A stretch of 34,930 nucleotides of DNA from an uncultured Lachnospiraceae bacterium. Its GTDB lineage: Bacteria > Bacillota > Clostridia > Lachnospirales > Lachnospiraceae. The stretch covers positions 1 to 34,930 of the forward strand of contig CAJFUP010000010.1 of the NCBI GenBank assembly GCA_904420225.1. The letters are read 5' to 3'. Below are positions 2,148 to 31,063 of this stretch, one piece after another. Every line of letters begins with the position of its first letter. Position 1 is the stretch's first letter. Position numbers and translations under genes: made by a program. The notes beneath the pieces were generated by a model. The model was not told the DNA's origin. It ran no database searches and was given only the letters and a program-made list of their open reading frames with translations.

Positions 2148-2777
2148 ATGGACCGGAGAAGCTATTGTATACAGGAAGTGGCGGGAAAAGAAGAGTTTTT
2201 ATAGGGGTTGGATGCTTGGCCCAAGGCCGAGATTGGCTGTTATCCGTGGGGAGGCGCGTATCGGCCCGAGGCATATGGCATTTGCTGTGCCGGTCCCGAG
2301 GCTCTCTACGTCTTTCTGGCAGCTCGGGAAGAGCAGCTGCGCTGCCAGGTCAAGGAAGCCAATGGGCCGGTATGCACCGATTCCTGTCTGGAGTTTTTTT
2401 ATCAGCCTGGGGATACGGGATACTTTAATTTCGAGTGGAACCCTCTGGGAGTGCTGCATCTGGGATTTGGAAAAGGACGGAACGGAAGGGTGCATCCTAT
2501 TTTGGAAGACGGAGAAACGTTTTTGCTGAAATTGGGCCAGTGGGAAGAATGGAGGCGAACCGGGTGGTGGTATGTGGCGTTTCAGGTTCCGTTCTCGTTT
2601 ATTCGCCGGTATGTACCCACATTCACAGGTGAAGGAGCGGATATGGGCCGCGGAAATTTTTATAAGTGCGGGGATAAGACGGAGCAGCCGCACTGGGGAT
2701 GTTATGCGCCGGTAAAGACGGAACAGCCGGATTATCATCGGCCGGAATTTTTTGCATCATTCAATAAAATTCAATAA
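2148..2777 (+). pseudogene. CBM9-like carbohydrate-binding family protein interrupted by an in-frame TAG at 2202-2204
   Basis: ATG at 2148 follows an SD-like AGGGGAAC and reads MDRRSYCIQEVAGKEEFL*GLDAWPKAEIGCYPWGGAYRPEAYGI... The ORF-track frame (2208-2777) is the same frame after the stop. The YPWGG.YRP.AY and DSCLEFF motifs fit the CBM9-like family as I know it. Confidence 0.6.
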
Positions 2778-20731: not shown

Positions 20732-20830
20732 ATACCCCTTTCTGTGATATGATGATGATGCCGGAGAAAAAGAACCTTCGGTGCCAGCAGCAAAAGCGCT
20801 GCTGCATGATCATAGAACAGAAAGGGGTAT
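20732..20830 (+). promoter_or_regulatory. long leader hairpin (candidate attenuator) upstream of the GTPase-NYN gene
   Basis: ATACCCCTTTCTGT (20732-20745) / ACAGAAAGGGGTAT (20817-20830), 14-bp perfect; stem continues with TATGAT (20748-20753) / ATCATA (20809-20814) after a GA/GA internal loop. The 3' arm contains the AAAGGGG SD-like sequence and runs into TTTT before ATG 20836. Confidence 0.65.
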
Positions 20831-20835
20831 TTTCC

Positions 20836-23622
20836 ATGGAGGATACGTCTGTAAATAAAAACAACAGAATCGAAATAGAAGCGGGGAGACGCATATGCGC
20901 GGGCATTCTTGCCCATGTGGACGCGGGGAAAACCACCCTGGCAGAGGGGATTTTGTATGTCTGCGGCAGCATCCGCAAATGGGGCAGAGTGGATCATGGC
21001 GATGCGTTTTTGGATACGTATGATTTGGAGCGGGAGCGGGGAATTACCATATTTTCCAAACAGGCAGAGCTTTCCCTGGGGGACAGGCAGGTGACGCTTT
21101 TGGACACGCCGGGCCATGTGGATTTTTCCGCGGAGATGGAGCGGACGCTGCAAGTGCTGGATTACGCTATTTTGGTCATCAGCGGAACGGACGGCGTACA
21201 GGGCCATGTTCTTACCCTGTGGAAGTTGCTTGTCCGCTACAGCGTCCCGGTGTTTCTCTTTATCAACAAGATGGATCAGCCAGGCACAGACCGGGGGAGA
21301 ATCCTGGAAGAGCTGCGCCGTCGGCTGGATGAGCGCTGTGTGGATTTTGGCTGCGGCTCCCAGGGTGAGGGGCAGGAGGAGCAACCGGAGTTTTACGAGC
21401 AGGCGGCCATGTGCGGGGAGAAACTTTTGGAGGAATATCTGGAGACAGGGCGGCTGGAGGAGGATTCCCTTCGGGATGCCATCCGCCGCAGGGAAATATT
21501 CCCCTGTTTTTTTGGATCAGCGCTGAAAATGCAGGGAGTAAAGGAATTTTTGGAGGGATTTCGCCGCTACAGTGTCTGTCCGGAGTATCCCAAAGACTTT
21601 GGCGCTAGGATTTATAAGATCGGACGGGATGAGAAAGGCACCCGGCTGACCTATATGAAGATCACCGGGGGCAGCCTGAAAGTCAAAGCCCTTTTGACCA
21701 ATGCCAAAGCGGAGGGGGAGGAAGGGGATCAGGTCTGGGAAGAAAAGGCGGATCAAATTCGAATTTACTCAGGCGCCCAGTATGAGGCAGTCAACGAAGC
21801 GGAGGCAGGAACCATATGCGCAGTCGCAGGGCTCACCAGGACAAAAAGCGGGGAAGGGCTGGGGATTGAAAGCGGCGGGGCGGAACCCTTATTGTCTCCG
21901 GTACTCAATTACCAAATTTTGCTGCCGGAAGGGAGCGATTATTTAAAGGTTCTCTCCCAACTGCGCCAGCTGGAGGAAGAAGAACCTCAGCTGCATATTG
22001 TGTGGAATGAAAAACTGGGAGAAATCCATGCTCAGGTCATGGGGGAAGTTCAGATTGAGATTCTCAAGCGTTTGATGGAGGATCGGTTTGGGATCCCAGC
22101 AGAATTTGGCTCCGGCAGTATTGTATATAAGGAGACCATTGGAAATACAGTGGAAGGGGTGGGCCATTTTGAGCCGCTGCGCCATTACGCGGAAGTGCAT
22201 CTTCTGATGGAGCCAGGGGAGAGGGGAAGCGGTTTGGTTTTTGCCTCCTCCTGCAGCGAGGATGTGCTGGAACGCAGCTGGCAGCGCCTGATATTGACCC
22301 ATCTGGAGGAACGGATCCATCCCGGCGTGCTGACCGGATCTGAGATTACAGATATGAAGATTACCCTGGTTGCCGGGAGAGCCCATTTAAAGCACACAGA
22401 GGGAGGCGATTTCCGCCAGGCCACCTACCGTGCCGTTCGCCAGGGATTGAGGAAAGCAGAGTGTGTGCTGCTGGAGCCCGTGTATGAATTTATGCTGGAA
22501 GTACCCACTTTCATGGTGGGGCGGGCCATGGCCGATATCCAGCGGATGCATGGGGAATTCCAGCCCCCTGTACAGGAGGGGGAGCTGTCGCTGATCACGG
22601 GTACGGCACCGGTGGCCACCATGGGCGGCTACCAGACCCAGGTGGCCGCTTATGGTCAGGGTATGGGCAGGCTGTCCTGTACGGTAAAGGGCTATGAGCC
22701 ATGCCATAACACAGAGGAGGTGCTGGCCCAGATGGGCTATGATCCGGATGCGGATGTGGAGAATCCCACGGGATCGGTGTTTTGTTCCCATGGAGCTGGA
22801 TTTTATGTGCCCTGGGATCAGGTGGAGCAGTATATGCACCTGGAAAGCGTTATGAAAAAGCCCGCAGCAGAAGACGACCACAGGAAATCCAGGCCTGCAG
22901 TCTCATCTGGGGCCGCAAAGGCGCGTTCTTTGAGGGAAGAGGATAAAGAATTGGAGGAGATTTTTCTCAGGACATACGGCCGCGGTCAGAAGCGCCAGCG
23001 GCCGGGGGGCTCATCTGGCCACGCCGAAAGGCGCAGAGATCTGTTTCAAAAGACGGAAAAAGGGAGAAAGAAAGCAGACAAAGAAAAAGATGAGGAGCCG
23101 ACCAGGGAATATCTTCTGGTGGACGGCTATAACATCATATTTTCCTGGGAAGAGCTGCGAGAGCTGGCAGCCGTCAGCATCGAGGCGGCCAGACATAAGC
23201 TGATGGACATTTTGTCCAATTACCAGGGATATCGAGGCGGCACACTGATCCTGGTATACGATGCTTATAAGGTGGAAGGAAGTCAGGGGGAAGTTTCCAA
23301 GTACCATAACATCCATGTAATTTACACAAAGGAGGCAGAGACAGCGGATCAGTACATCGAGAAAGCTGTCCATGAAATAGCGAAAAAACACCATGTAACC
23401 GTGGCTACCTCCGATGCCTTGGAGCAAGTGATTATATGGGGCCAGGGAGCCAGAAGAATGTCGGCCCAGGATCTTTTGGACGAGGTGGAACGTGTGGGGC
23501 AAGAGATCCGGGGAACCTATCTCAGCCGTCCGGCCAGGCCGGTGCATCGTCTGTTTGATCATCTGCCCGATCAGCTGTCGCAGATCATGGAAGAAATTCG
23601 GCTGGGACGAAAAAAGATATAA
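20836..23622 (+). CDS. TetM-like/EF-G-family ribosomal-protection GTPase fused to a C-terminal NYN (YacP/Rae1-like) nuclease domain
   Basis: GTPase motifs AHVDAGKTTL, RERGITIF, DTPGHVDF, NKMDQPG and EF-G-like C-terminal domains. After a charged linker, NYN motif YLLVDGYNIIFSWEELRELAAVSIEAARHKLMDILSNYQGYRGGTLILVYDAYKVEGS...ATSDALEQVIIWGQGARRMSAQDLLDEV. Start 20836 chosen over ORF-track start 20749. Confidence 0.88.
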   Translation: MEDTSVNKNNRIEIEAGRRICAGILAHVDAGKTTLAEGILYVCGSIRKWGRVDHGDAFLDTYDLERERGITIFSKQAELSLGDRQVTLLDTPGHVDFSAEMERTLQVLDYAILVISGTDGVQGHVLTLWKLLVRYSVPVFLFINKMDQPGTDRGRILEELRRRLDERCVDFGCGSQGEGQEEQPEFYEQAAMCGEKLLEEYLETGRLEEDSLRDAIRRREIFPCFFGSALKMQGVKEFLEGFRRYSVCPEYPKDFGARIYKIGRDEKGTRLTYMKITGGSLKVKALLTNAKAEGEEGDQVWEEKADQIRIYSGAQYEAVNEAEAGTICAVAGLTRTKSGEGLGIESGGAEPLLSPVLNYQILLPEGSDYLKVLSQLRQLEEEEPQLHIVWNEKLGEIHAQVMGEVQIEILKRLMEDRFGIPAEFGSGSIVYKETIGNTVEGVGHFEPLRHYAEVHLLMEPGERGSGLVFASSCSEDVLERSWQRLILTHLEERIHPGVLTGSEITDMKITLVAGRAHLKHTEGGDFRQATYRAVRQGLRKAECVLLEPVYEFMLEVPTFMVGRAMADIQRMHGEFQPPVQEGELSLITGTAPVATMGGYQTQVAAYGQGMGRLSCTVKGYEPCHNTEEVLAQMGYDPDADVENPTGSVFCSHGAGFYVPWDQVEQYMHLESVMKKPAAEDDHRKSRPAVSSGAAKARSLREEDKELEEIFLRTYGRGQKRQRPGGSSGHAERRRDLFQKTEKGRKKADKEKDEEPTREYLLVDGYNIIFSWEELRELAAVSIEAARHKLMDILSNYQGYRGGTLILVYDAYKVEGSQGEVSKYHNIHVIYTKEAETADQYIEKAVHEIAKKHHVTVATSDALEQVIIWGQGARRMSAQDLLDEVERVGQEIRGTYLSRPARPVHRLFDHLPDQLSQIMEEIRLGRKKI

Positions 23623-30328: not shown

Positions 30329-30343
30329 TTTACCTCACATTCT

Positions 30344-30430
30344 GCCGCGTAAGCGGCTTTTTCATTTCCAAAGAAACAAAAGAGCCGCAGTTCCTGTTTA
30401 TGCATAGAAACAGGCAAACATACGGCTCTT
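30344..30430 (-). promoter_or_regulatory. structured, attenuator-like 5' leader of the MATE gene
   Basis: Reverse strand AAGAGCCG...CGGCTCTT outer stem (30423-30430 / 30380-30387), inner CCTGTTT/AAACAGG stem, U-rich run, then GCCGC-TTAC-GCGGC hairpin (30344-30357) before the SD. Confidence 0.6.
30398..30421 (-). CDS. candidate 7-codon leader peptide MFACFYA upstream of MATE gene
   Basis: Reverse strand ATG TTT GCC TGT TTC TAT GCA TAA, just after the predicted transcription start; embedded in paired stems. Confidence 0.4.
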   Translation of the reverse strand: MFACFYA

Positions 30431-30439
30431 GGCAGCCAT

Positions 30440-30468
30440 ATCCTACCATGGAATCAGGGAAAAGTCAA
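30440..30468 (-). promoter_or_regulatory. promoter for MATE transcript
   Basis: Reverse strand TTGACT (30468-30463), 17-nt spacer, TAGGAT (30445-30440). Confidence 0.6.
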
Positions 30469-30640: not shown

Positions 30641-31063
30641 ATGGAATACAGGAGATTTCAGCAGACCATTGTGGCCAGAATGGACAAGGGGGAAGAGATT
30701 CTGACAAAGCTGCAGGAAATCTGCGAAAAAGAACAGATAAAGCTGGCCAGCGTATCGGCACTGGGAGCAGTGGGGGAGTTTACGGTGGGGCTGTTTGATA
30801 CGGTTAAGAAGCAGTATCAGTCCGCTTCCATGACAGGGGATTTTGAGATTGTTTCCCTGACCGGGACTGTCAATACCATGGGCGGGGCATACTATGCCCA
30901 CATTCACATGAGCGCCGGGGACAGGGAATACCATGTGTTTGGCGGTCATCTGAACCGGGCTGTGGTCAGCGGCACATGCGAGATGGTCATCCAGATCATT
31001 AACGGAACGGTGGATCGCGTGTATGATAAAGAAGTGGGACTGAATGTATACAAATTTGACTGA
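30641..31063 (+). CDS. PPC/DUF296 domain-containing putative DNA-binding protein
   Basis: ASVSALGAVGEFTVGLFD..., HIHMSAGDREYHVFGGHLNRAVV motif. Confidence 0.88.
   Translation: MEYRRFQQTIVARMDKGEEILTKLQEICEKEQIKLASVSALGAVGEFTVGLFDTVKKQYQSASMTGDFEIVSLTGTVNTMGGAYYAHIHMSAGDREYHVFGGHLNRAVVSGTCEMVIQIINGTVDRVYDKEVGLNVYKFD

Follow-up and report, generated by a model that had tools for sequence, protein, structure and literature searches.

The MATE gene and its leader

The window, by which we mean the whole stretch of 34,930 nucleotides that was analyzed, encodes on its minus strand a MATE family efflux transporter whose closest structure-solved relative is BH2163 (4lz6, 5c6n, 5c6o). The leader of this gene contains a promoter and a large hairpin (Table 1), and on its far side lies a divergent gene for a PCC domain protein (30641-31063, plus strand), so the hairpin is not the terminator of a neighboring gene. 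A preliminary description of the leader had assigned the pump gene a promoter of its own and had proposed a seven-codon reading frame within a stem, together with mutually exclusive stems, as the parts of a translation-coupled attenuator or small riboswitch controlling the efflux pump. When the window was re-read, the sequences named in that description were all found at their places on the minus strand. The separate promoter was borne out: a promoter scan recovered TTGACT-17-TAGGAT at 30468-30440 (minus strand), the two closest relatives (loci L027 and L028) carry similar promoters, and of 38 distinct leaders 76% have a sigma-70-type promoter scoring at least 9/12 no more than 100 nt 5′ of the hairpin, versus 18% of shuffled upstream sequences. 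The gap between promoter and hairpin is shortest, at 9 nt, in the window and in locus L097.

The stem AAGAGCCG/CGGCTCTT does flank the seven-codon frame, with a T-rich run behind it, but it is larger than had been described and forms one composite hairpin (30430-30372). In the window this hairpin reads AAGAGCCGUA..GUU..CCUGUUU/AAACAGG AAC UGCGGCUCUU, with a folding energy of about −24 kcal/mol. The leader as a whole folds at −39.8 kcal/mol versus a mean of −25.8 kcal/mol (z = −4.3) and is more stable than 200 of 200 dinucleotide shuffles. Of the mutually exclusive stems, the complementarity held, as AAAAAGCCGC (30361-30352) can pair with GCGGCTCTTTT apart from one bulged C, but the competing fold was not supported. 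The alternative pairing was worse by approximately 5 kcal/mol (−36.2 versus −41.4), the GCCGC stem is missing in L027 and L028, and the AAAAAGCCGC strand is transcribed only once the terminator has formed. Elsewhere in the window (20749-23622, plus strand), a 957-aa protein joins an EF-G/TetM-like GTPase (GTP_EFTU, EFG_IV, and EFG_C domains) to a C-terminal YacP-like NYN nuclease domain, an unusual combination of a ribosome-acting GTPase with an RNase-like domain.

Table 1. Positions of the pump gene and of the leader features in the window.
Feature	Position	Strand	Remark
-35 box TTGACT	30463..30468	-	Promoter scan; TTGAC(A/T)-17-TAGGAT also in L027 and L028
-10 box TAGGAT, preceded by TG	30440..30445	-	Promoter scan; 9 nt from box end to hairpin
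Terminator-embedded RNA element, whole conserved motif	30372..30430	-	57.5 bits, E 2e-10 in the window, filters off
P1 5′ arm AAGAGCCGUAUG, outer terminator stem	30419..30430	-	Covarying
UUU bulge	30416..30418	-	Invariant in 39/39 distinct members
P2 5′ arm CCUGUUU	30408..30414	-	Upper UUU invariant in 39/39
P2 loop CUAUGCAU	30400..30407	-	Consensus C(U/A)G(A/C)AU
P2 3′ arm AAACAGG	30393..30399	-	
P1 3′ arm UGCGGCUCUU	30380..30389	-	
U-rich terminator tail TCTTTTGTTTCTT	30371..30383	-	Overlaps end of P1
Putative MFACFYA reading frame	30398..30421	-	Not conserved, probably not functional
GCCGC-UUAC-GCGGC hairpin 5′ of ribosome-binding site	30344..30357	-	Absent in L027 and L028
Shine-Dalgarno GAGG of MATE gene	30336-30333	-	
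MATE family efflux transporter gene, 449 aa	28979..30328	-	TIGR00797, 211 bits versus cut-off of 147

Conservation and covariation of the hairpin

We gathered 78 related MATE loci, aligned their leaders, and built covariance models from them; the E-values given are approximate, the calibration having been short. A covariance-model search in front of other MATE genes, a check that the preliminary description had called for, showed that 59 of the 78 loci carry the element immediately 5′ of the MATE gene, on the sense strand (model R2, all E ≤ 2.4e-7). Many of these loci had been used in building the model, so the independent evidence consists of the matches of model R1, the genome scans, the core pattern, and the covariation. 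The training set of R1, 31 copies, included no Erysipelotrichales-type MATE loci, but the model still recovered them (L085-L093) at E values near 1e-9, with P2 altered in compensating pairs (CUAUUU/AAAUAG and CUCGUUU/AAACGAG). The pattern TTT-N-CTGTTTC..AAACAG matched 51 times in 461 kb, each time (51/51) 62 to 153 nt before a MATE gene, whereas shuffling predicted 0 matches. Among 39 distinct members, two-sided changes were present at 15 of 19 base pairs, the cells with double changes numbered 126 versus 34 in shuffles, and the covariation score was 0.502, whereas shuffles gave 0.225 and slid registers no more than 0.157; 0 of 500 shuffles reached the observed score. The MATE proteins that bear the leader have pairwise identities down to 38-45%.

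The outer stem, P1, comprises about 12 bp whose sequence is unconstrained across the 39 distinct members. P2 follows the consensus NCUGUUU/AAACAGN, in which the three upper U-A pairs are practically invariant and the lower pairs covary. Its loop, of roughly 6 to 12 nt, is partly conserved (C(U/A)G(A/C)..), with the loop C retained in 38/39 and the loop G in 34/39 members; the window loop CUAUGCAU departs from this consensus, as do the loops of L027 and L028. Every one of the 38 distinct members scored has 6 to 9 T residues per 10 nt of tail, and the median hairpin energy is −21 kcal/mol. Judged from these features, P1 and the U-tract look like a predicted intrinsic terminator, that is, an expression platform, in every member. 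The alignment revealed no convincing additional covarying helix or pseudoknot. The sole strong extra covariation signal, between columns 7 and 13, was rejected as a helix, both columns lying within one P1 arm and being split by clade.

The peptide fared differently from the stems. The frame ATG TTT GCC TGT TTC TAT GCA TAA is present at 30421-30398, but its product, MFACFYA, is limited to the window, L027, and L028. No conserved reading frame covers the core among the 38 distinct leaders, in which start codon, frame, and peptide vary, and about 12 of these leaders lack any such frame. The comparison of codons with stems that had been suggested therefore came down on the side of the stems (15/19 pairs with two-sided changes) and not of the MFACFYA codons, and the proposed translation coupling was not supported. 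Only the hairpin with its core exceeds chance expectation; neither the peptide nor the competing hairpin downstream does. The part that is conserved, and apparently regulated, is the terminator hairpin.

Approximately 18 of the 78 related MATE loci are without a clear copy of the element. In five loci (L029, L037, L040, L060, and L070) a co-directional gene, judged by eye to encode an MntP-like manganese efflux protein, ends just 5′ of the MATE gene. These loci lack the hairpin, as would fit a pump that entered an operon and shed its leader. Two Ruminococcus-type MATE relatives (L078 and L082, both at 2400-2490, plus strand) share another terminator hairpin at the same position, with a conserved interior GGUAGGAAA..CC..UUCUU. 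A MATE relative from Fusobacterium mortiferum (L098, 2419-2484, plus strand) is preceded by an element-like hairpin (23.5 bits, E 0.013) that is possibly a remote or converged copy.

Genomic distribution and downstream genes

The element is present in several Firmicutes groups, with the cultured Sellimonas and Mediterraneibacter among its carriers, and genome scans added copies from further families and classes, likewise 5′ of transporter genes. These scans covered 40 genomes with strict filters, and about 1,900 genomes were sampled, so the distribution and the gene-context counts are lower bounds. Weak genome matches (E 1e-3 to 1e-2) were discarded, most of them being ordinary terminators without the core. 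In the 20 whole genomes reached via the loci, one copy was found in 17, a match on both strands in 1 (a single palindromic element scored twice), and none above threshold in 2. The window genome possesses one copy of the element versus about 20 MATE-like genes, a large number for a 2.4-Mb draft, and only 1 of those genes has the leader. Across the neighborhoods of 37 loci, the MATE gene alone is common beyond close relatives, and no linked regulator gene is shared by them. Viral and plasmid collections yielded zero copies in searches with one exact core pattern and by blastn with one consensus.

Other genes downstream of the element encode a paired SMR exporter (L142 and L146), a MelB-like GPH symporter (L144 and L147), a YczE membrane protein (L145), a DUF6198 membrane protein (L138), an AEC-type Mem_trans carrier (L149), and, with a weaker match (E 1e-5), an EamA exporter (L139). 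Each of these non-MATE contexts is represented by one locus or by two species of a single genus, and all of the identified downstream genes encode membrane transport or membrane proteins. The SMR proteins score under the cut-off of the SugE model. The SMR pair and the MelB-like symporter are neighbors in two congeneric species, and each has a separate copy of the element (L142/L144 in genome G1011, L146/L147 in G1189).

Regulatory models and relation to known elements

There is good support for assigning the hairpin to the cis-regulatory terminator elements. With moderate confidence, we regard the hairpin as a cis-acting transcription attenuator that carries a conserved sensor core inside the terminator hairpin and that most probably acts as a small-molecule ON riboswitch. 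In the default state, RNA polymerase would produce the hairpin at or close to the mRNA 5′ end, P1 and the U-tract would terminate transcription, and the pump gene would remain untranscribed. An inducing compound, when present, would be bound by the core (the UUU bulge, the invariant U-A pairs of P2, and the loop C(U/A)G(A/C)); the bound core would then keep a shape that bars closure of P1, so that read-through into the MATE gene would allow the compound to be exported. The sequence analysis shows the order of promoter, hairpin, and gene, the conservation of the element, the covariation of its two stems, the U-tract, and the link to MATE and other transporter genes; it also shows that no peptide is conserved and that no regulator gene is linked. 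In the window and in L097 the transcript begins at or just before P1, so the sensor must be inside the terminator hairpin, and with a promoter as near as 9 nt the hairpin must work without an upstream domain. An upstream antiterminator was suggested by eye in several members, and pairing of upstream sequence with the P1 5′ arm was only marginally in excess (10 of 300 permutations were as good, and 5 of 20 in an ensemble test); we do not claim it. Because neither a conserved antiterminator nor an added covarying helix was found, the ON direction and direct ligand binding are what we infer. Of the earlier proposal, then, the riboswitch reading and the conserved terminator-like leader are retained and the translation coupling is not.

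The main rival to the riboswitch is a trans-acting RNA-binding protein, acting as an antiterminator or by stabilizing the terminator, that would recognize P2 and the UUU and report drug or metabolic stress. The upper P2 pairs and the UUU are invariant in sequence beyond any purely structural need, and P2 is nearly constant in many members, as sequence-specific binding would require. We nevertheless consider this reading rather unlikely, given that the neighborhoods share no regulator gene and that the element occurs mostly as one copy per genome, scattered over distant Firmicutes groups, a pattern that does not suggest a dedicated regulon.

A plain, unregulated intrinsic terminator, for example one shielding the pump gene from upstream read-through, would account for the terminator features, every one of which is present, and a co-directional gene does end just 5′ of the hairpin in L038, L039, L056, and L094. 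This explanation is very unlikely: the upstream gene in the window is divergent and the promoter stands immediately before the hairpin, the unpaired UUU and the loop sequence are kept across orders, unlike in ordinary terminators, and it is the weak model matches that are ordinary terminators lacking the core, whereas 51 of 51 core matches lie 5′ of MATE genes. TetR and MarR operators are frequent at efflux genes, and P2, read as DNA, forms an inverted repeat, which could make the palindrome CCTGTTT-N8-AAACAGG an operator for a repressor of the pump gene. That reading appears highly improbable, for the half-sites vary in spacing from approximately 6 to 12 nt and shift in the compensating pairs noted above, the asymmetric UUU bulge, like the 3′ U-tract, is kept constant on just one of the two strands, and the outer stem covaries freely. 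Barely credible is a ribosome-mediated attenuator in which a leader peptide (MFACFYA) stalls the ribosome under antibiotics and blocks the terminator, as in mef/mel(msr(D)); the window frame overlaps the stem behind an A/G-rich stretch 5′ of its ATG, and transcription attenuation can control drug-efflux genes, as the mef(E)/mel leader does (PMC4335068), but such attenuators need a translated leader peptide and none is conserved around the element, the frame being restricted to three close relatives while the RNA core persists where it varies or is missing, the stem pairs covary as RNA, and in the window and L097 the promoter, at a distance of 9 nt, leaves scarcely any space for a ribosome-binding site.

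Returning to the riboswitch, we compared the element with known RNAs. At the gathering threshold of Rfam 15, the window and 29 loci gave zero matches to cis-regulatory families; the best sub-threshold match in the window was sok (18.5 bits versus 59). A literature search lying mostly outside subscription journals, with Rfam as the sole RNA-motif database, found no description of the motif. The element could be present, without a description, among the thousands of unnamed candidate RNAs catalogued from human microbiomes (PMC8040213). We conclude that this terminator-embedded orphan riboswitch candidate has apparently not been described before.

Several known systems resemble it in part. The HMP-PP riboswitch (thiS motif; PMC6478431) is an ON switch with a very small aptamer in an intrinsic terminator hairpin whose tip is unusually conserved, and the window element likewise has a terminator-like stem with a conserved tip (a putative aptamer) and a proposed ON logic. 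The HMP-PP riboswitch, however, regulates thiamin HET-P genes, and there is support for an alternative, pseudoknot-containing fold of it, whereas our element precedes transporters and showed no convincing alternative fold. The guanidine-IV riboswitch (mepA or GGAM-1 motif; PMC7736828, PMC11611296) is an ON-switch terminating leader before MATE and SMR exporters in Firmicutes, and the element shares with it both these genes and the conserved nucleotides in a terminator hairpin. Guanidine-IV consists of two hairpins joined by a pseudoknot (PMC9788692) or kissing loop in an aptamer of about 88 nt, in contrast to the one composite hairpin here, and the window and L097, with the −10 box 9 nt away, leave no space for a 5′ hairpin. 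The element is not guanidine-IV by the criterion of two hairpins and a pseudoknot and not HMP-PP by gene context. The Gd4v motif (PMC9788692), an orphan guanidine-IV variant found mostly before PRK07324 transaminases and also before GNAT acetyltransferases, is, as is the element, a gut-enriched, MATE-associated, terminator-based orphan, but retains the 5′ hairpin and pseudoknot. The HRC-8-4 motif (PMC8632094) is similar as a single terminator-like stem with a conserved tip and a suspected terminator-embedded sensor; it is confined to Rhodobacterales, between cbb3 oxidase operons or before hvrB. Two MATE relatives from our set, in Lachnospiraceae TWA4 (L095, 2410-2480, plus strand) and Granulicatella (L103, 2400-2480, plus strand), share a different leader, GUGGAUUUUYC..GAA..UUUUCGCCACAU followed by a terminator; it may be guanidine-IV-like and has no Rfam match.

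A single element shared by genes for unrelated transport proteins is classically taken to indicate a riboswitch that responds to a common compound. There is, in our estimate, an even chance that these RNAs are the founding members of an undescribed group of self-contained, terminator-embedded Firmicutes riboswitches of about 60 nt, which would sense one toxic compound, control MATE, paired SMR, EamA, AEC, and YczE-like exporters, and use as binding core the invariant unpaired UUU together with the UUU/AAA pairs. That this core might form U·A-U triples is speculation. Work on orphan riboswitches has brought unsuspected metabolites to light, chief among them guanidine. A motif placed before many unrelated transporters in gut Firmicutes points to a compound that is often met and needs transport, and identifying its ligand would reveal both that compound and the molecule that this MATE subfamily naturally transports. 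The element would also enlarge the small set of terminator-embedded sensors and offer a compact genetic part.
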